This document shows positions 21,253 through 31,043 of a stretch of 48,017 nucleotides of DNA, piece by piece. The stretch comes from Thermoplasmatota archaeon (GTDB lineage Archaea; Thermoplasmatota; E2; DHVEG-1). The notes below the pieces were generated by a model, which made no database searches, had not been told where the DNA came from, and was given only the letters and a program-made list of their open reading frames with translations. The DNA lies in assembly GCA_030616985.1 (NCBI GenBank), contig JAUWWG010000002.1, positions 1-48,017 of the forward strand, written 5' to 3'. The position numbers were made by a program, and so were the translations under genes. Positions within the stretch are counted from its first letter, which is position 1; the number at the start of each line of letters is the position of its first letter.

Positions 21253-21927
21253 TTATTTACTTTTCAACAGATAAAGTGGTCCAAGTATAATGTATGTTAC
21301 AAGCGTCGTAATGAGGAGCAGAGGGGCAATTCCATAATAATTTTTTCCAAAAATCAAAGTCAAAATAATTAATATGGCTGCTATGGCATCAATTTTAAGC
21401 CCTGGTTTCGGAAAATGTACATTTGAGATCATTGCAAGTGAGATGATAATGCTGACTGGCAAGATGTATAAGAATTCAATCTCAAAAAATGCCAGTATAA
21501 TTATTATTATGGCACTTATCGAAGCAGGGAGGCCAACAAAGAATTTTTTATCTTTCAGTATGTGAAAAGAGGCCAGCCGTATGATACTTAACGACAAAAA
21601 CACGATGAGGGTAATGAGGAGATAACTGTGGTAGTAAATACACCATGAAACTGCGTCATGATATATGGTGTAAACAAAAAACGAAGGAGCAACACCAAGT
21701 GAAATCATGTCGGCCATTGCCTCCATGTAATCCCCAAGTTCACTATGTCCAGTTTTTCTGGCTACCATTCCATCTAAACCATCTGCCAATAATGCTATAA
21801 GAATAAATGAAAAAGAAAACCACATCTCACCTAAAGACGCCATAATTATAGCTAGAAAACCAAAACCTGCATTAGTTAAACTGACGACGTCAGCAAGTGA
21901 TAACAGTTTAATCATTGATTTCTGCAA
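21253..21927 (-). CDS. pssA: CDP-alcohol phosphatidyltransferase, archaetidyl/phosphatidylserine synthase
   Basis: LADGLDGMVARKTGHSELGDYMEAMADMISLGVAPSF (DGxxAR…G…LDxxxD-like). Confidence 0.88.
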   Translation of the reverse strand: MQKSMIKLLSLADVVSLTNAGFGFLAIIMASLGEMWFSFSFILIALLADGLDGMVARKTGHSELGDYMEAMADMISLGVAPSFFVYTIYHDAVSWCIYYHSYLLITLIVFLSLSIIRLASFHILKDKKFFVGLPASISAIIIIILAFFEIEFLYILPVSIIISLAMISNVHFPKPGLKIDAIAAILIILTLIFGKNYYGIAPLLLITTLVTYIILGPLYLLKSK

Positions 21928-22555
21928 TTGTATTCACTCCTGCCTTGATCATGTCCCCTATTTTGACATGCACGGTCTTTATTTTCTTAGAAGGTATATA
22001 GATATCTACGCGGGAACCAAGTCGTATTATTCCAATTTTTTCTCCCTTTTTTAGTTTATCCCCCTTCTTGACATATGGTACGATACGGCGTGCCAGAGTT
22101 CCTGCAATTTGTATAACCTTTACTATTCCAATCTCTGTATCGATTGTTAATATTACTCGTTCATTTCTTTCTGATTCTTTTTTGAATGCCGGAAGATGAG
22201 CGCCAGGTAGATGAACAATATTTTTTATGGTTCCATCCAGTGGCATACGGTTGACATGGACATTATATACGTTCATGAATGTAGATATCTTTGTACATTC
22301 TCCAATTTCACTATCTTTAATGCTACTGATTTCTCTTATTTTACCATCTGCAGAGGCAACGATTTCCTTTCCAATATTCCTTTCAGGATCTCTGAAGAAA
22401 AGAAGGAAAAAACCTGTTAATAAAAGTAAGAAAACTGAGATAAACAAAAAAGTACTACTGATATTTGCTGTTAGACTAACGGATAAAATCAAAAAAAAGC
22501 AACCCAGAATAAAAGTAGTTAAAATCCATGATATAGAACCCCGTGCGATCTTCAT
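21908..22555 (-). CDS. asd: Archaetidyl/phosphatidylserine decarboxylase
   Basis: MNVYNVHVNRMPLDG, FFRDPER, IRLGSRVDIYIP (GSxxD); start at 22555 chosen over 22606. Confidence 0.88.
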   Translation of the reverse strand: MKIARGSISWILTTFILGCFFLILSVSLTANISSTFLFISVFLLLLTGFFLLFFRDPERNIGKEIVASADGKIREISSIKDSEIGECTKISTFMNVYNVHVNRMPLDGTIKNIVHLPGAHLPAFKKESERNERVILTIDTEIGIVKVIQIAGTLARRIVPYVKKGDKLKKGEKIGIIRLGSRVDIYIPSKKIKTVHVKIGDMIKAGVNTIAEIND

Positions 22556-22556
22556 G

Positions 22557-23489
22557 TTACTTTTTTCTCCAAACAGTTTTTTTAATAAAGTTTTCCAAAG
22601 GTCCATTTCTCTTGGGAAGATCCGTTAAATCTATTATCTCGTCAAAAACCTCTGGTACAATCTTAATAACAATGAATAATAGTATTACTAATGCAAGTAG
22701 GCTTCCACCTTTTCCTATTACATTGTGTGCCATAAAAAAAAGGCCCGGATCATCTTTTACTAGATGGACAATAAGAGCATTTCTTATGAGATTTAAAAAA
22801 TATATTGGAACTACTGTAATGAGTAGGCCATACATCTTCCTCTTTAAGGTAACCTTTGATAAGGGGAGTATCATACCAACGAAAATAACCATGGATTGCA
22901 CAGCAGTGCAGGCAAATATTATGTTGACGATACGTGAGCTTTCATAATAGATGCCTATTCCTTGTACACTTACATTACCTATGAATATATTTAGAAGCCC
23001 GCCACTCTGAACTGCGACTGCTTCAATAAGCCACGGTGCTAGAGGGGTAAGCTCTATAACAAAATAAATAAATCCAGCGATAGCTGATGCACCAGCTATC
23101 CAATTCAAACATCCGATGCTTTCTTTCCGTCTCATTGATAGCCATTCGTGGTAAGCAAGATAAAAGAGAACATAAACTCCGGCAATACAGAGAAATGCGT
23201 TGACAAAATCCTCTCCCTCTCCAAAATACAGAGTGTTTGGTTGTGTTGACCAATAAAATGCAAAAACTCCCCATCCTGCTATTTTTAGTTTGTTTGTTGT
23301 TCCTTCTTTTTTTAGAAAAGAACCCAGCCCAAGAAGAATTAAACCAGCAAAGAGAGGTATGGGCAATAATGCTTTCATTTCTTCATTTATCGGGAATGGA
23401 AAAAATGACAGTCCTATTATTATGAATACCGTTGGAATGATGATAAAAAGTGAAGTAATAGTACCTTCTGGGTATTTCTCTCTCTCCAT
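22557..23489 (-). CDS. artA: Archaeosortase A
   Basis: Polytopic; IIFACTAVQSMVIFVG (Cys), FLNLIRNALIV (Arg), MAHNVIGKGGSLLAL. Confidence 0.9.
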   Translation of the reverse strand: MEREKYPEGTITSLFIIIPTVFIIIGLSFFPFPINEEMKALLPIPLFAGLILLGLGSFLKKEGTTNKLKIAGWGVFAFYWSTQPNTLYFGEGEDFVNAFLCIAGVYVLFYLAYHEWLSMRRKESIGCLNWIAGASAIAGFIYFVIELTPLAPWLIEAVAVQSGGLLNIFIGNVSVQGIGIYYESSRIVNIIFACTAVQSMVIFVGMILPLSKVTLKRKMYGLLITVVPIYFLNLIRNALIVHLVKDDPGLFFMAHNVIGKGGSLLALVILLFIVIKIVPEVFDEIIDLTDLPKRNGPLENFIKKTVWRKK

Positions 23490-23574: not shown

Positions 23575-24630
23575 CTATACTATTCCTAGCATTTCAAATA
23601 CTGGTTGCAAGCCAAAATTTGCCATTATTGTCTGATCCCACATTATACATATCAGTCCAACAAGACTGAGCAGGGTTAGCGGTACCCAGTAGGTGTAGAC
23701 AATCTGATCTATTTTAAGACGCGCGACTGCAACTCGTATTAACGTGACAGAGAACAAGATCACAAGAAATACTTTCGCTAGATAGAATGCAATGTCGACG
23801 GCAAATGCAGGATAACTTTCTAAACCAAATAGTGGTGAAAGGTTGTATGGGAAGAACAGGGCAACTATCAGCGATGCCATTACTACCGTTTTTACACCAT
23901 CGGTTAAATAGAACATGGCAAGATTTCTCCCGGAGTATTCGGTGAGCAGCCCACCTGCTATTTCCGTTTCTGCCTCTGGCGAGTCAAATGGTATCTTGGA
24001 AAGTTCAGCAGGAGTGATGATTACAAGTACAAGGAGCAGTATTATAAAACCGATAAATCCCAGAGGGCCTGCTATATTCCATACGGGTGTTGCTGCAATG
24101 GATGATAATGCAAATACATTGGTGACACCTTGCATACTTAACCTCCACGCAATGGTTATTATTATGATTGCTAGTGGGAATTCATAGGCAATCATTGTTG
24201 CCATTTCTCTTTGAGCGCCAATCGTTGCGTAAGGTGAACCAGAGGAGAAACCACCTATTACCATCGCTAGAGACGGAATGATTAGTAGATACAGAATTAA
24301 AATAAGATCGCCCTTTCCAGGGAACAAGGGTTGAAATCCACCTAGTGGTAAATAGAGTAGTATTGATATCGTTGCAACAAGCCCTACTAGTGGAGCTAGG
24401 TTAAAAATCCAAGGAATGGCATTTTCAGGAACGATGTTTTCTTTTGTAAATAGTTTTACAACATCTCTGAAAGGTTGTCGTATTGGTGGTCCTATTCGCC
24501 CCTGCATATGAGCAGATAATTTCCGGTCAATACCTTTGTATACTAATCCAAAGAAGATGCCAAATAAGGCAAGTGCAATTGTACCAATTATTACCATCAT
24601 TGCTGTCTGAGATATCTGTAGAAAATCCAT
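23575..24630 (-). CDS. NuoH/MbhM-like membrane subunit
   Basis: RIGPPIRQPFRDVVKLFTKENIVPENA, FDSPEAETEIAGGLLTEYSG. Confidence 0.92.
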   Translation of the reverse strand: MDFLQISQTAMMVIIGTIALALFGIFFGLVYKGIDRKLSAHMQGRIGPPIRQPFRDVVKLFTKENIVPENAIPWIFNLAPLVGLVATISILLYLPLGGFQPLFPGKGDLILILYLLIIPSLAMVIGGFSSGSPYATIGAQREMATMIAYEFPLAIIIITIAWRLSMQGVTNVFALSSIAATPVWNIAGPLGFIGFIILLLVLVIITPAELSKIPFDSPEAETEIAGGLLTEYSGRNLAMFYLTDGVKTVVMASLIVALFFPYNLSPLFGLESYPAFAVDIAFYLAKVFLVILFSVTLIRVAVARLKIDQIVYTYWVPLTLLSLVGLICIMWDQTIMANFGLQPVFEMLGIV

Positions 24631-25008
24631 TTATATCGCCCCCACCAGGTTTTCGCCCACAATCAAAACTACGAAAAGAATTGCCATTACTATGACAAAC
24701 CATAAGGCATAGTCGCTAACGTTTCCCGTATGCATTTTTTTTAGCGAGTCAAAAACCCATTTCAGTGATTCTGTGAAACCCCAGTAGATGTTACTGCTTT
24801 TTATGTGCATTTGTTCCTTTTCATATTCTGGATTTCCAGATAGAAATGCTTGGGTTTGCCCAGTGTTTTTCTTGTATTCTTTGTTACCGAAACCTCTGAG
24901 TATGACTGCTATGAGAAATGCAACTAATATTGCAACAACCCATATAATCGGATTCCAAAAACCACTTCCTGTTTGGAATGTTTCTAATAATGATTCTAGT
25001 GTAAACAT
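24631..25008 (-). CDS. MbhI-like linker subunit
   Basis: Position between MbhH-like and NuoH-like genes; two TM segments around an amphipathic region. Confidence 0.65.
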   Translation of the reverse strand: MFTLESLLETFQTGSGFWNPIIWVVAILVAFLIAVILRGFGNKEYKKNTGQTQAFLSGNPEYEKEQMHIKSSNIYWGFTESLKWVFDSLKKMHTGNVSDYALWFVIVMAILFVVLIVGENLVGAI

Positions 25009-25010
25009 AA

Positions 25011-26588
25011 TTAGACACCCCCTGCAAATGAGGGAATTACTTCTCTTATATAATCACCATAGTTAACAAGTGCATTGGCCGCAGGCTCTACAATATTATT
25101 TATTATAAGTTCAGGGAAAAGACCAAAGATTATTATGATGGTTGCAATGGTTCCCATAGCAATTAGCATACTTTTTGGCACTTCCTTTACATTTTCAAAC
25201 TTTGGTAACGCTGGCCCTAAGAATGCAGCGTGAAATACTTTCACAAATACTGCTAAGAGCATTATGCTTGACAGAATAGCGATTATTGATAGTATTGGAT
25301 TAAGTTGGTATGTTGATTCATAAATGAGTAGTTTGGATGCAAATCCATTCATGGGGGGCATGCCCGATATGGCAAGAAGTCCTATTATGAAAAATACAGT
25401 AGTATATTTCATATTCCTTGCCAATCCACCCAGCTTATTTAGGGAGGTTTCTTTAGTCGCATAATATATTGCTCCTGCAACGAGGAACAACAGCCCAACA
25501 TCCAATGCATCGTTCATTATGTGGAAAATACCTCCCTTCATTGCAGCTAGTCCAGTAGCTGTCATTTCAGGGTTTAGCATGACAACAAGCCCAGTACCTA
25601 TACCAAGGAGTATGTAACCTATTTCTGCTACTGCGCCAAAGGCTATAAGTCGTTTGAAATCAGTTTGTATTATTGCCATGGCAACTCCAAGTAACATTGT
25701 GATGATTCCCAGTATTACCAAGATCCAGCCAACAGATATAGGAGTTAGATTTATGGCTCCACCATATATTGTGAAGCACACCCTAAAAACACCATATAGG
25801 CTTGCCTGGGTTGCACCTACAAGTATGAGGGTTACTGATGAAGGTGCTTTTCCATAAGCATCTGGGAGCCACATATGCATGGGTACTACACCTGCTTTCA
25901 TAGCAAGTGCAGCAATCAATAAAACAAGTGCGATTTTATCCAGGAATGTATATTGTATTGCACTTGCAATCATTGCCATGTTAAGAGCATTATATTGCCC
26001 GTAGAACAGTGCTATTGAAAATAGAATAAATAGTGCGCCTATGGTACTTATCACGATATATTTGAATCCTGCTTCAACTGATTTTGCCTTGTTAGTCCAA
26101 AATGCTACTAGTGCAGCTGAAGAAATGGATGTTATCTCGAGGAATACAAAGAAATTAAACAAGTCTCCAGTAAGTTCCATACCAAGCATTCCTGCAGTCA
26201 TCAAAAGAATCAGGGTGTAATACTTATCAAGTCCAGTGTTTTCCTTCATAAAAGACCATGAATAGATTACTGCAACCAGTGACAGTATTACGCTTATTAT
26301 GGCCATGAAAGCACTCATTGCGTCTACTTCAAATAGAATTCTCACAACAGGGAGTGCCAGATCTTGCGAACCAAAAATGTAGGTATGAATGTTTCCGGTA
26401 AAAACATCGGATGCGAGCAGAAATACAAGTGAAGCAGTTAAACCAAGAGTTAGTATAACAAAAACATTTCTTACTTTATCATTAAGTCGGCTAATCAAAG
26501 GTGTGATAAACGCGCCAAGTAAAGGAACGGCAACGATTAATGCTGGAGAATGCTGTAAAAGTAGGGCAATGAGATCGGCTACATTCAT
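25011..26588 (-). CDS. MnhD/MbhH-type antiporter-like subunit
   Basis: ELTGDLFNFFVFLEITSISSAALVAF, KAGVVPMHMWLPDAYGKAPSSVT. Confidence 0.93.
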   Translation of the reverse strand: MNVADLIALLLQHSPALIVAVPLLGAFITPLISRLNDKVRNVFVILTLGLTASLVFLLASDVFTGNIHTYIFGSQDLALPVVRILFEVDAMSAFMAIISVILSLVAVIYSWSFMKENTGLDKYYTLILLMTAGMLGMELTGDLFNFFVFLEITSISSAALVAFWTNKAKSVEAGFKYIVISTIGALFILFSIALFYGQYNALNMAMIASAIQYTFLDKIALVLLIAALAMKAGVVPMHMWLPDAYGKAPSSVTLILVGATQASLYGVFRVCFTIYGGAINLTPISVGWILVILGIITMLLGVAMAIIQTDFKRLIAFGAVAEIGYILLGIGTGLVVMLNPEMTATGLAAMKGGIFHIMNDALDVGLLFLVAGAIYYATKETSLNKLGGLARNMKYTTVFFIIGLLAISGMPPMNGFASKLLIYESTYQLNPILSIIAILSSIMLLAVFVKVFHAAFLGPALPKFENVKEVPKSMLIAMGTIATIIIIFGLFPELIINNIVEPAANALVNYGDYIREVIPSFAGGV

Positions 26589-26929
26589 TCTTCCGGTCCC
26601 CCTATTTTTCTGACATCCAATGTTCCATAATGCCTATAGATGTGAATTACCAGAGACAACATCAGTGCTAGGACGGCGACACCTATGACAATGCTGGTAA
26701 GAGTCAGTGCTTGAGGGACGGGCAGTGCCATAATTCCCCCGGGTGAACTTGTATAGATTGGAGCAATGCTTCCTTCTCTATAACCTAATGTGATTAGAAA
26801 CAGGTTAACTCCGCTTTCAATAAGGGTGATACCAATGACCATTTTAATCAGATTTCTCTTAAAAATAACTGCATATAACCCTATCAGAATCAAGGCAGCA
26901 ACTGCGATAAAAGGAATATTAAAAATCAT
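26585..26929 (-). CDS. MnhC/MbhG (NuoK-like) subunit
   Basis: LIKMVIGITLIESGVNLFLI; DPVPQALTLTSIVIG-type motif (ALPVPQALTLTSIVIGVA). Confidence 0.92.
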   Translation of the reverse strand: MIFNIPFIAVAALILIGLYAVIFKRNLIKMVIGITLIESGVNLFLITLGYREGSIAPIYTSSPGGIMALPVPQALTLTSIVIGVAVLALMLSLVIHIYRHYGTLDVRKIGGPEE

Positions 26930-27402
26930 TTCTTTCCCTCCTTTGTTCTACTTGCATAAGCCATGACCAAAACGATGCCAAACAAACCTACGATTACCTT
27001 AAGTCCTACGGCAAAATTCATCAGTGGAATTACGCCTCCTGTGTTGATATTTGCAAGGCCTGATCCAACTGCTGGAACCACTCCAAATAGGGAATTTGTA
27101 CCAACTAAGAAATTATTAAAAAATACTGTCCCAAAGCCGAGTCCCAGTAGTGCAAGAAGGATAAAACAGACAGCTCCAAGGCTTTCGAGAATTGATAGGT
27201 TTTTTTCTCTTACTCTATTCATTGTCCATATAGACCCATAAGAAACTAGTATCATTGCACAGCCAGATGCAACTATGGCTCCTCCCTGGAAACCACCACC
27301 TGGTGTAAGATGTCCATGGGCAATGATATATAAACCATATATCGTAATGAATGGGAAAGCAATGCCGGAAATGGTTTTGACTATCTTAGACATGCCACTC
27401 AT
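26926..27402 (-). CDS. MnhB/MbhF subunit
   Basis: GLYIIAHGHLTPGGGFQGGAIVASG. Confidence 0.93.
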   Translation of the reverse strand: MSGMSKIVKTISGIAFPFITIYGLYIIAHGHLTPGGGFQGGAIVASGCAMILVSYGSIWTMNRVREKNLSILESLGAVCFILLALLGLGFGTVFFNNFLVGTNSLFGVVPAVGSGLANINTGGVIPLMNFAVGLKVIVGLFGIVLVMAYASRTKEGKK

Positions 27403-27674
27403 TTGTTTAGCCTCCTAAAAATCATGATAATGGCCGCAACAGCAGTAAATAGAATCGTAGTCTCGCCAAGTGTATCCAAACCTCTATAATCAAACACTAC
27501 TGATGTAACTGCATTGTTGGCTCCTGTTTCTGTCTGGGCGTTAGTAATTATGTTATCGTCCATGCCTGTTTCATCTGGGGCACCAAACGGATGTATCATG
27601 AGAGCACCAAAAATAAAGAATATTGCAACAATTGAAAAGGACAATACGGCTGTTATGTCTCTTCTTGACATCAT
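27399..27674 (-). CDS. MbhE-like subunit
   Basis: VTSVVFDYRGLDTLGETTILFTAVAAI. Confidence 0.9.
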   Translation of the reverse strand: MMSRRDITAVLSFSIVAIFFIFGALMIHPFGAPDETGMDDNIITNAQTETGANNAVTSVVFDYRGLDTLGETTILFTAVAAIIMIFRRLNK

Positions 27675-27922
27675 GCGTCTTCCTCCATACGTTTTGTAGC
27701 TTTTATTGCAATGACAAGGATGGCAGTAGTAAGACAGGCACCCACACCTGCTTCTGCTATTGCAACGTCAGGTGCCTGAAGAATATAAAACTCAAGGGAT
27801 AGCAAAAGACTCATGGCAGCAACAGCAATAGCCGCGGCGATCAAATCCTTCATTAAAACAGCGAATGCAGCAGCTACTACGATTAGGATGGGCAGTATAA
27901 TATGAATTCCCTCTAGTATCAT
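27671..27922 (-). CDS. MbhD-like (DUF4040) subunit
   Basis: MSLLLSLEFYILQAPDVAIAEAGVGACLTTAILV. Confidence 0.9.
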   Translation of the reverse strand: MILEGIHIILPILIVVAAAFAVLMKDLIAAAIAVAAMSLLLSLEFYILQAPDVAIAEAGVGACLTTAILVIAIKATKRMEEDA

Positions 27923-28305
27923 TCTTTTACCTCCGTTTTCTTCTTAACAGCTTTTTTAGTTGACTTTTTTCTCAAACTATCTACGACAGCACCAACTGGT
28001 TCGACACCACTTTTATGTGCAGCTCTTGCAATAGCATGGGCGCCAGTTGGATTAGTAAGCAGTATAGCTACTAATGCTCCCACTGTGTGTATTGCTAAAA
28101 CGGAACCATCTGTACTACCTTGATACCACATTTTCAACCCCAGGATTATTACTGATCCACAGATGAAAATTGAACCAAACGTCGTACATTTTGTCCCGGC
28201 GTGAAGTCTTGTGTATACATCAGGGAAACGCAATAATCCAACTCCGGCAAGGACATTGAAAAAAATTCCAATTCCCAGTAAAATGTAAATTAAAATCTCT
28301 AACAT
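27919..28305 (-). CDS. MnhG/MbhC subunit
   Basis: VGLLRFPDVYTRLHAGTKCTTFG, LTNPTGAHAIARAAH. Confidence 0.93.
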   Translation of the reverse strand: MLEILIYILLGIGIFFNVLAGVGLLRFPDVYTRLHAGTKCTTFGSIFICGSVIILGLKMWYQGSTDGSVLAIHTVGALVAILLTNPTGAHAIARAAHKSGVEPVGAVVDSLRKKSTKKAVKKKTEVKE

Positions 28306-28568
28306 CAGAAGTCCCCTCCTTCTAGGTACTTAGCTATAAACAATGTGGTAATAAAAGAGAGTAGAGCGTAGACTATGGCAACATCAATATAGATAACTTC
28401 ATTGAATGCTGCACCAAAAATGACCATGCCACTAATTACAATAGTGTTGATCGTGTCCAAGCCAACAATTCGATCTGGTGCGGTTGGTCCACGGATCACT
28501 CTAATCATGGCCATTATAACACAAAACAGTAGTGCTAGTAATACAACCAAGTATTCAAAGTCCATCAT
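28305..28568 (-). CDS. MnhF/MbhB subunit
   Basis: VIRGPTAPDRIVGLDTINTIVIS, DVAIVYALLSFITTLFIAKYLE; start chosen at 28568. Confidence 0.9.
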   Translation of the reverse strand: MMDFEYLVVLLALLFCVIMAMIRVIRGPTAPDRIVGLDTINTIVISGMVIFGAAFNEVIYIDVAIVYALLSFITTLFIAKYLEGGDF

Positions 28569-29083
28569 TCGGCAATCCTCCTGATCCATTTATCAAAATT
28601 TCCACAGATATATTTGCAGTCAACAGATTCCCCTTTCAATGCTTCTTCATTGACATTTATCCAGTGGATGTAGAGATCATTTTTGTCTTCATCAATATCC
28701 ACGCTTAATGTTCCAGGAGTAAGTGTTATGGAATTTGCAAGCATTGTTATTCCAAGATCTGTTTTAAGGTCTGGGGATATTTTTACAATGCCTGGATTTA
28801 TTTTACCTGTTATTACACGGTATGCGACGTCAATATTTGCCTTTGCCATACCCATAAAAAACGGTCCAATGGCATACGCAATAAATGTTAACCATCTAAC
28901 AGGATTTAGCATTCTAAAATCTTCCTTCACAAAAATCCTTCCCGTGACGAATCCAACGATTAACGAAAGAATAAATCCAAATAGAAGTTCTTCCCTGCTC
29001 CAAAGTCCTATTGTTCCACTGCCCGTAGTAAGAAGTAGATAGGTAATGAAACATATGATAGTTGTAACAATAAATGCTATCAT
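28565..29083 (-). CDS. MnhE/MbhA subunit
   Basis: NIDVAYRVITGKINPGIVKI, LANSITLTPGTLSVDIDEDKNDLYIHWI. Confidence 0.92.
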   Translation of the reverse strand: MIAFIVTTIICFITYLLLTTGSGTIGLWSREELLFGFILSLIVGFVTGRIFVKEDFRMLNPVRWLTFIAYAIGPFFMGMAKANIDVAYRVITGKINPGIVKISPDLKTDLGITMLANSITLTPGTLSVDIDEDKNDLYIHWINVNEEALKGESVDCKYICGNFDKWIRRIAE

Positions 29084-29252
29084 TGTATTTTTCCTCCAAA
29101 TATTTTTAATTTATATTTGACGGTAATTCTGTTGCTTTTTAAAAGCTTATGGTTTCTGTTGAGGCTATATTAAGATTATATGCAAGAATGGTTCATGTGC
29201 ACCTCAAATGTAATAAGAGCAAATTGGTATATGGGTAAAAGGCGAGTTATTG

Positions 29253-29915
29253 ATGAATGTTAAACTCATAGGATTTACTCCTAATCCCGAGAAAATACCT
29301 GCTATGGCTGCAAAACTTACACACAGCAAAACAAAACCTGAAGATTTGGATAAAACCTCTGATAAAGAATTAAAATCTGTACTTGATTATGTCATGAATC
29401 TGGGGCATACAAGTGTGATTGAGCATGCGAGTTTTAATTTTGCAATAAGCGATGTAAGCCGATCACTTACACATCAACTAGTGCGGCATCGTATTGCTAG
29501 TTATGCTCAGCAGAGTCAGCGGTATGTAAATTTCAATGAACCTAATTATGTAACACCTCCAAAAATTGCAAAAAACAAGGAAATGAAAAAAGCTTATGAT
29601 GCGACTATGAAAAACATCTGGGGAGAATACAACAGACTATTAGAACTGGGCATACCTGCAGAAGACTCACGTTATGTGCTTCCTAATGCTGCTTGTACAA
29701 ACGTCATTGTCACAATGAACGCTCGATCATTACTGAATTTTTTTGAACTACGATGCTGCCAACACGCGCAATGGGAAATCAGACAACTGGCAAATAAAAT
29801 GCTGCGGGAAGTAAAAAAGGTAGCTCCGGCCATTTTTAAAAATGCAGGACCTGCATGTAAGAGCAAAGGTATTTGCCCTGAAAACAAAAAGGATTGTCCG
29901 CTTTATCCTAAGTGA
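29253..29915 (+). CDS. thyX: FAD-dependent thymidylate synthase
   Basis: RHRIASYAQQSQRYV (RHRx7S motif), HTSVIEHASFNFAISDVSR. Confidence 0.95.
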   Translation: MNVKLIGFTPNPEKIPAMAAKLTHSKTKPEDLDKTSDKELKSVLDYVMNLGHTSVIEHASFNFAISDVSRSLTHQLVRHRIASYAQQSQRYVNFNEPNYVTPPKIAKNKEMKKAYDATMKNIWGEYNRLLELGIPAEDSRYVLPNAACTNVIVTMNARSLLNFFELRCCQHAQWEIRQLANKMLREVKKVAPAIFKNAGPACKSKGICPENKKDCPLYPK

Positions 29916-29922
29916 GAATTGT

Positions 29923-30579
29923 ATGAATAGGCCATATGTAATTGTAAATTGTGCAATGTCTGCAGACGGTAAGATTGCACTTCCAACTAGAAAACAGCTA
30001 AGGATATCTAGTGATGAAGACATAGAACGTATGTACAACTTGCGTAATGAATGTGATGCGGTTCTTGTTGGAATTGGTGCCGTGCTTTCCGATGATCCAA
30101 AGCTTACGGTTAAAGAGAAATATGTTAGAAATCCAAAACAGCCTTTGAGGGTAGTTCTGGATAATAAATGCAGAACTCCAGAAGATGCTTTGGTTTTAAA
30201 TGATGTGGCAAAAACACTGATAGTCACCGTCCAAGGAAACGAAAAGCAGTTTGAAGGAGATCATATAGAAGTAGTTGGGATCAAAGCTGATGATGGAATG
30301 CATGTAGAGTTAGAGAGTATGTTGGATCTCCTTTATCAGAGAGGGATAAAGAAACTTTTAGTTGAGGGTGGCGGAACCATTATATGGAGTTTTTTAAGAA
30401 ATAGATTGGTAGACGATTTATACATCTACATTGGACCATGTATCATCGGAGGTAAAAATACACCTACGGTGGCAGATGGATCGGGCATAAAAAACGAAGA
30501 CGATTTATTATCTCTAAGAATAGTTGATGTGAATAGATTGGGGAATGGTCTTTTAGTTCATTACAAACTGATGCAATGA
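29923..30579 (+). CDS. 2,5-diamino-6-(ribosylamino)-4(3H)-pyrimidinone 5'-phosphate reductase (RibD C-terminal family)
   Basis: VNCAMSADGKIALPTRKQLRISSDEDIERMY…DAVLVGIGAVLSDDPKLTV…LLVEGGGTIIWSFL. Confidence 0.9.
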   Translation: MNRPYVIVNCAMSADGKIALPTRKQLRISSDEDIERMYNLRNECDAVLVGIGAVLSDDPKLTVKEKYVRNPKQPLRVVLDNKCRTPEDALVLNDVAKTLIVTVQGNEKQFEGDHIEVVGIKADDGMHVELESMLDLLYQRGIKKLLVEGGGTIIWSFLRNRLVDDLYIYIGPCIIGGKNTPTVADGSGIKNEDDLLSLRIVDVNRLGNGLLVHYKLMQ

Positions 30580-31043
30580 AAATATTATGCGATCAAATGC
30601 TTGGCACACTTGCAAAGTGGCTTCGTATTCTAGGATTTGATACTTTTTATGAAAATGCAGAGATGTCAGATGAAGATTTACTAAACATTGCTAAAGGTGA
30701 AAACCGCACCATATTTACACGAGATAAAGAATTAATTATAAGGGGAAAAAAGAAAAATCTAAATGTTATATCAATAGAAACTACAGACCTCGACCTACAA
30801 TTAAATCAAGCTTTAAAGCATGTAAACATTGATGAAAAATCGATTTTGTCAAGATGTACTCTTTGTAATACAGTACTTGATACAGTTGAGAAGAACAAAG
30901 TCCAAGGAAAAGTCCCAAGTAAAGTATTTGAAAACAATGAGAAATTTTGGTTTTGCTCGAAATGTAATAAATTCTATTGGATGGGAAGTCATTATAATGA
31001 GATGATCAACAAGATAGACAAGATTAAAAAATTACAACAATAG
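30576..31043 (+). CDS. Mut7-C (DUF82) PIN-like RNase domain protein
   Basis: CDQMLGTLAKWLRILGFDTFY, IFTRDKEL, SRCTLCN…FWFCSKCNKFYWMGSHY. Confidence 0.9.
   Translation: MKILCDQMLGTLAKWLRILGFDTFYENAEMSDEDLLNIAKGENRTIFTRDKELIIRGKKKNLNVISIETTDLDLQLNQALKHVNIDEKSILSRCTLCNTVLDTVEKNKVQGKVPSKVFENNEKFWFCSKCNKFYWMGSHYNEMINKIDKIKKLQQ

Follow-up and report, generated by a model that had tools for sequence, protein, structure and literature searches.

We analyzed a 48,017-nucleotide stretch of DNA, here called the window, from an archaeon of the Thermoplasmatota (GTDB lineage Archaea; Thermoplasmatota; E2; DHVEG-1; GenBank assembly GCA_030616985.1, contig JAUWWG010000002.1, positions 1 to 48,017 of the forward strand). 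On the minus strand of the window, from position 29083 down to 23575, lie ten open reading frames that are short-spaced, abutting, or overlapping and that family searches identify, in order, as MbhA, B, C, D, E, F, G, H, I, and M, subunits of the hydrogenase Mbh. The comparisons reported below point, with a probability of about 0.92, to these genes as the membrane arm of a complete Mbh-type group 4d [NiFe] hydrogenase whose operon is split, the genes for the peripheral arm (mbhJ, mbhK, mbhL, and mbhN; together, JKLN) lying elsewhere in the same genome.

The genes run from mbhA (28565 to 29083; MnhE-like, 172 amino acids [aa]; Pfam MNHE, 4.9e-37) and mbhB (28305 to 28589; MrpF-like, 94 aa; MrpF_PhaF, 9.7e-20) through mbhC (27919 to 28305; MnhG/PhaG-like, 128 aa; PhaG_MnhG_YufB, 3.6e-24), mbhD (27671 to 27922; 83 aa; MbhD, 5e-17), and mbhE (27399 to 27674; 91 aa; MbhE, 6.6e-9) to mbhF (26926 to 27402; MnhB-like, 158 aa; MnhB, 2.6e-25). 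MbhA, MbhB, MbhC, and MbhF also scored above the cut-offs of NF006245, NF009242, NF009312, and NF006248, respectively. The best NCBIfam match of mbhG (26585 to 26929; NuoK/MnhC-like, 114 aa; Oxidored_q2, 5.2e-27) was NF006250, under the cut-off. An antiporter-like, NuoL/M/N-like proton-pump subunit of 525 aa is encoded by mbhH (25011 to 26588), and its best PDB match is 6CFW_H (368 bits), from the Mbh of Pyrococcus furiosus. MbhI (24631 to 25008; 125 aa) scored 119.5 bits against NF053600 (cut-off, 95), with 6CFW_I as its sole PDB match. Finally, mbhM (23575 to 24630; 351 aa; NADHdh, 6e-69) encodes the NuoH-like membrane anchor of the soluble arm and has 6CFW_M as its best PDB match (211 bits). 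No J, K, L, or N gene lies between or beside these genes in the window; mbhM abuts mbhI (24631/24630). The Pfam, NCBIfam, and PDB matches bear out a preliminary description of this DNA, which had read the ten genes as MbhA to MbhI followed directly by MbhM, with JKLN missing from the stretch.

A peripheral arm on a second contig

The genome of the window (G000) is a 2.05-Mb draft in 142 contigs, 89.5% complete, with an estimated contamination of 2.06%. Genome-wide work consisted of targeted searches. They found a single Proton_antipo_M gene and a single NADHdh gene, each located in the window; the only gene for a 49-kDa/[NiFe] large subunit is on contig C75. There, at ~19.9 to 22.5 kb on the minus strand, genes for J (144 aa), K (179 aa), L (411 aa), and N (133 aa) follow one another in that order, and the best PDB match of each protein is 6CFW. 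The L protein has both CxxC pairs (C71/C74 and C375/C378), E24 (the equivalent of E21), and a C-terminal tail of ~30 residues such as maturation proteases cleave off. All 35 family L sequences compared retain the four [NiFe] cysteines and the counterpart of E21. J carries the sequence GSCNGC, in which C23 and C26 form a CxxC proximal-cluster motif rather than CC, and N has two 4Fe-4S motifs. Upstream of JKLN lies hypE, downstream are hypF and then hypD, and a HycI-type protease is encoded nearby (these maturation genes were named by inspection and conserved synteny).

All 14 subunit types, A to N, are encoded in this genome, A to I plus M in the window and JKLN on C75. Since there is one membrane arm and one peripheral arm with full motifs, we take the genome to encode a complete Mbh-type [NiFe] hydrogenase. 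The preliminary description had titled the locus a membrane arm without hydrogenase and had left a choice between a peripheral arm encoded elsewhere and a complex I-type Na+/H+ module with an unknown electron-input partner. The lack of JKLN holds locally, where M abuts I, and does not extend to the genome. A search for orphan J, K, L, and N genes, which that description had proposed, found them on C75 with full hydrogenase motifs; the first of its two options was the right one, and with a single Mbh-type peripheral arm and complete [NiFe] hydrogenase genes in the genome, neither the second option nor the title is supported.

We assigned the enzyme to group 4d by its motifs, its subunit set, and its closest solved relatives. 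Like the P. furiosus Mbh (group 4d; 6CFW), it has 14 subunit types, with H, I, M, J, K, L, and N matching 6CFW chains best, and it shares the four [NiFe] cysteines, E21 of L, the CxxC of J, and the two 4Fe-4S motifs of N. The C75 L scored 384.8 bits against 6CFW_L; the next solved relative was FHL (237 bits), and Mbs sulfane sulfur reductase (6U8Y), which belongs to the same superfamily and has similar arms, reached 151 bits. Two of the [NiFe] cysteines, as well as E21 of L, are missing from Mbs (PMC7684303). We rejected an Mbs or Mbx identity because all four cysteines are retained and the genome has one H-type gene, whereas Mbs and Mbx have lost two cysteines and have two antiporter-like subunits. 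A complex I/NDH identity was rejected on the [NiFe] cysteines and on the proximal cluster of J, where two cysteines two residues apart are distinguished from the CC of complex I (PMC7684303). A single antiporter-like subunit H and a separate mbhI gene, both expected of Mbh, are present in the window genome. Only gene order deviates: the one-operon arrangement ABCDEFGHIJKLMN, which is usual and not strictly defining, is replaced by two loci. Group 4d hydrogenases have already been reported for Thermoprofundales, the same lineage and class (PMC11287216), and the enzyme described here is very likely that one; the accessible part of that paper is silent on the location of the arms and on a split.

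The split in the family and its relatives

The family is Thermoprofundales/MBG-D (DHVEG-1), and counts cover those members whose loci were retrieved. One member, G024, shares an identical contig (MUGC01000097.1) with M9B1D, a genome named as Thermoprofundales (MBG-D) in PMC6461988 and PMC11287216. JKLN stand without M or A to I alongside in 23 members, I is followed directly by M in 23, and both hold in 19. In single-contig assemblies, the halves are ~695 kb (G002), ~147 kb (G006), and ~829 kb (G026) apart. The membrane arm of the family is nearly always flanked by thyX and by archaeosortase-asd-pssA-like genes, and JKLN usually lie between hypE and hypF. In the window, thyX, RibD-like, and Mut7-C-like genes occupy 29250 to 31043 on the plus strand. 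The archaeosortase-, asd-, and pssA-like genes (21253 to 23489, minus strand; named by inspection) lie downstream of mbhM and are kept beside it in most family members.

Relatives of the family have the canonical operon. It is found in the sister family (G038 and G041) and in six other members of the class. Outside the family, M follows L in 66 of 66 loci with enough downstream sequence (of 69 named loci), and those outgroup loci that are complete enough have the order ABCDEFGHIJKLMN. The canonical operon of G041 lies beside thyX, RibD-like, and Mut7-C-like genes, the same three as in the window. These neighbors mark the ancestral operon site; hence, the window holds the ancestral site, and J, K, L, and N are the genes that departed. 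In the family ancestor, a canonical operon beside thyX would have lost these four genes to another locus while M stayed.

The preliminary description had held that JKLN genes adjacent in related genomes would refute its reading, as a sign of rearrangement, and such adjacency was found both in the sister family, once at the same thyX site, and in two family members (G023 and G035), where JKLN lie directly upstream of A to I and M. In these two, JKLN-ABCDEFGHIM form one cluster at another site, and the simplest reading is that the halves have been rejoined. We do not favor this fused order as the family ancestor: G023 and G035 nest inside the family in the trees of both halves, and the split arm lies at the ancestral thyX site. 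The tree of the membrane half and that of the JKLN half each recover the family and the sister family, with a distance correlation of 0.94 overall.

In the structure of the related Mbs, the soluble arm is made up of J, K, L, and N, with M as its membrane anchor (PMC7684303). The cut separates soluble JKLN from the membrane genes A to I plus M. It follows protein topology and differs from gene order, since M lay between L and N and yet stayed.

Several other loci are of note in their own right. Some family members (G003, G018, and G029; loci L119, L120, and L121) lack a full Mbh L and have another group 4 [NiFe] cluster instead; the alternative L is ~46% identical and has both CxxC pairs, and the clusters at L120 and L121 include two antiporter-like genes and an adjoining HycI-like protease gene. 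In G034, a single-contig assembly, mbhH (L099; C1:1393450-1393965) ends after ~135 residues at a run of masked/unknown bases, and neither the rest of H nor I or M turned up in this genome, which points to an assembly gap or a broken gene. In-frame stops in mbhH of G017 (TAA; L054) and mbhL of G052 (TGA; G052:C2:19487-20701) may be sequencing errors or mark broken genes. Two loci of rumen Kiritimatiellae (L182 and L184) have M after mbhL, with no J, K, or A to I detected in the 8 to 10 kb upstream, and are possibly another rearranged Mbh.

A promoter element before mbhA and mbhJ

In aligned upstream regions, a TATA-like box followed by ATTACC precedes both mbhA and mbhJ. Upstream of mbhA in the window, the element reads TTTTAAAAAGCAACAGAATTACC (29122 to 29144, minus strand), and the same element lies in the mbhJ promoter (C75:22547-22570). 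We searched for it as TTTTAAA-N9-12-ATTACC, with at most two mismatches, within 150 bases upstream of genes. It was found before mbhA at 23 of 23 loci and before mbhJ at 20 of 23, compared to ~4% for shuffled sequence; as the element was first noticed in the same alignments, these counts are descriptive and not an independent test. The same search gave no match before hypE, hypF, hypD, hycI, the archaeosortase gene, L, H, or M. Exact matches across eight whole genomes numbered 34, of which 12 were mbhA or mbhJ promoters. The 22 others compare with 23 for a reversed control pattern, which gives no support to the element being a general component of promoters in these genomes. The genome of G017 has just two exact matches, namely the mbhA and mbhJ promoters. 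The occurrence of the same near-unique element at both halves, with none before the neighboring hyp genes, suggests that the halves are regulated or transcribed together. With one mismatch, the element also precedes mbhA in two canonical operons, that of G038 in the sister family and that of G056 in the same class; it therefore probably predates the split.

Alternative readings, proposed working, and meaning

A number of points weigh against a complete hydrogenase with a split operon. The genome is a draft, estimated above as 89.5% complete, and a further partner could be missing. The thyX gene, which shares an intergenic region with mbhA, itself has the element in 6 of 23 genomes. Within the family, the membrane-arm tree and the JKLN tree show only moderate agreement (distance correlation, 0.72), and JKLN or K-L may have been exchanged between lineages.

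Three other explanations were weighed. The ten genes might form a stand-alone Mrp- or complex I-like ion pump driven by an unidentified electron-input partner, which would fit the lack of JKLN in the window and the resemblance of A to H to subunits of Mrp Na+/H+ antiporters, where A-G-type subunits function without a redox arm. Mrp, however, lacks I, M, and J to N, whereas here I and M, the connectors to the hydrogenase module, are retained in the operon and the genome has exactly one matching Mbh-type peripheral arm, on C75. We rejected G014 (95% complete; no L or J) as a case of the arm without JKLN: its contig C72 starts just before hypF (position 127), and the gap is explained by a contig break at the gene upstream of which JKLN would sit. 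We consider such a pump very improbable. Scarcely credible is that C75 is a contaminant or that the split is an assembly artifact hiding a canonical operon. The number of contigs and the estimated contamination of the draft would allow it, but 19 genomes share the two-locus order, three of which are assembled as a single contig, and the GC contents of the window (0.369) and C75 (0.366) are alike. The sister species G001 has both loci, with 94.6% DNA identity to the window genome in the membrane-arm region. In addition, I runs straight into M in the window, and both ends of the arm have conserved neighbors.

An unlikely reading, though less so than these two, is that two or more peripheral arms share the membrane arm as their base, with extra or exchanged JKLN sets plugging into one module of A to I plus M. 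G027 and G017 each have two L genes and a single mbhH. The second mbhL (G027:C2:1754-2974 and G017:C20:2294-3514 [L129]) is 75% identical to L of the window genome, and the J promoter element also precedes the second copy in G027. At L129, the second set shows hypE-JKLN. These sets are duplicate peripheral arms or contamination; the estimated contamination is 6% for G017 and 2% for G027, and the extra copies may be foreign. Exchange is also brought to mind by a comparison of G000 with G001, in which the hypF-N and J-hypE stretches are mostly 0.85 to 0.99 identical per 100 bases (around 95%), whereas ~1.6 kb between them, covering most of mbhL and mbhK (L004:7300-9100 on G000:C75, compared to L010, G001:C99:1300-3000), is ~75% identical. 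This block looks like a recombinational replacement, with a strain-mixed assembly as the alternative. The window's genome itself has one of each arm.

For the split hydrogenase, a working can be proposed by homology to the mechanism of the P. furiosus Mbh (PMC11228991). Amino acid fermentation would yield reduced ferredoxin, which would donate electrons to the two 4Fe-4S clusters of N. These would pass by way of the proximal cluster of J to the [NiFe] site in L, where protons would be reduced and H2 released. Redox-linked conformational changes would in turn drive ion pumping via M, I, and H, with Na+/H+ exchange via A to G. We infer by analogy that both halves assemble into one complex and are coexpressed, as we do the direction of the reaction and the ion. 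Thermoprofundales have ferredoxin-linked 2-oxoacid oxidoreductases for protein breakdown (PMC6461988), which, together with the reported group 4d hydrogenases, fit this proposal.

The core residues are retained (in P. furiosus numbering, E21 of L, R64 of J, E221 of M, and E141, K225, and K409 of H). In P. furiosus the genes form one operon, and here they lie at two loci. Several of the salt-bridge partners proposed for coupling from P. furiosus simulations are not retained (K24 and D379 of L, E216 of M, and E375 of H); these positions vary in other Mbh too. In MbhH of the window, the HxxxH/K pattern of transmembrane helix 11 is altered (residues 356 to 364), with NDALDVG in place of NHALxKA/G. 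Every family and sister-family sequence has D and V/I where P. furiosus MbhH has H350 and K354, and similar changes in helix 11 occur in the Mbh of Acetothermia, Bipolaricaulota, and Caldisericota and in Thermotoga-type Mbh.

In the open literature that could be searched, which left out most subscription papers and all supplements, we found no account of a split Mbh operon. As an enzyme, this hydrogenase belongs to a known kind. The novelty lies in the stable division of its operon, specific to one lineage, at the soluble/membrane boundary, together with a rare promoter element common to both halves. The finding disposes of a false lead, an ion pump lacking its redox partner. In its place stands a 14-gene respiratory complex divided exactly between soluble and membrane subunits, an arrangement that is conserved in a widespread sediment lineage and whose halves are linked by that element. 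It also calls for caution in annotation, as the Mbh membrane arm and the hydrogenase are usually not together in MBG-D archaea. More speculatively, and with long odds against it, separation of the modules may allow peripheral arms to be exchanged or duplicated on one membrane arm, with the common dedicated promoter keeping the halves in step. If this were true, the second JKLN sets and the replacement of the K-L block would be a live case of the modular mixing that is thought to have built complex I.

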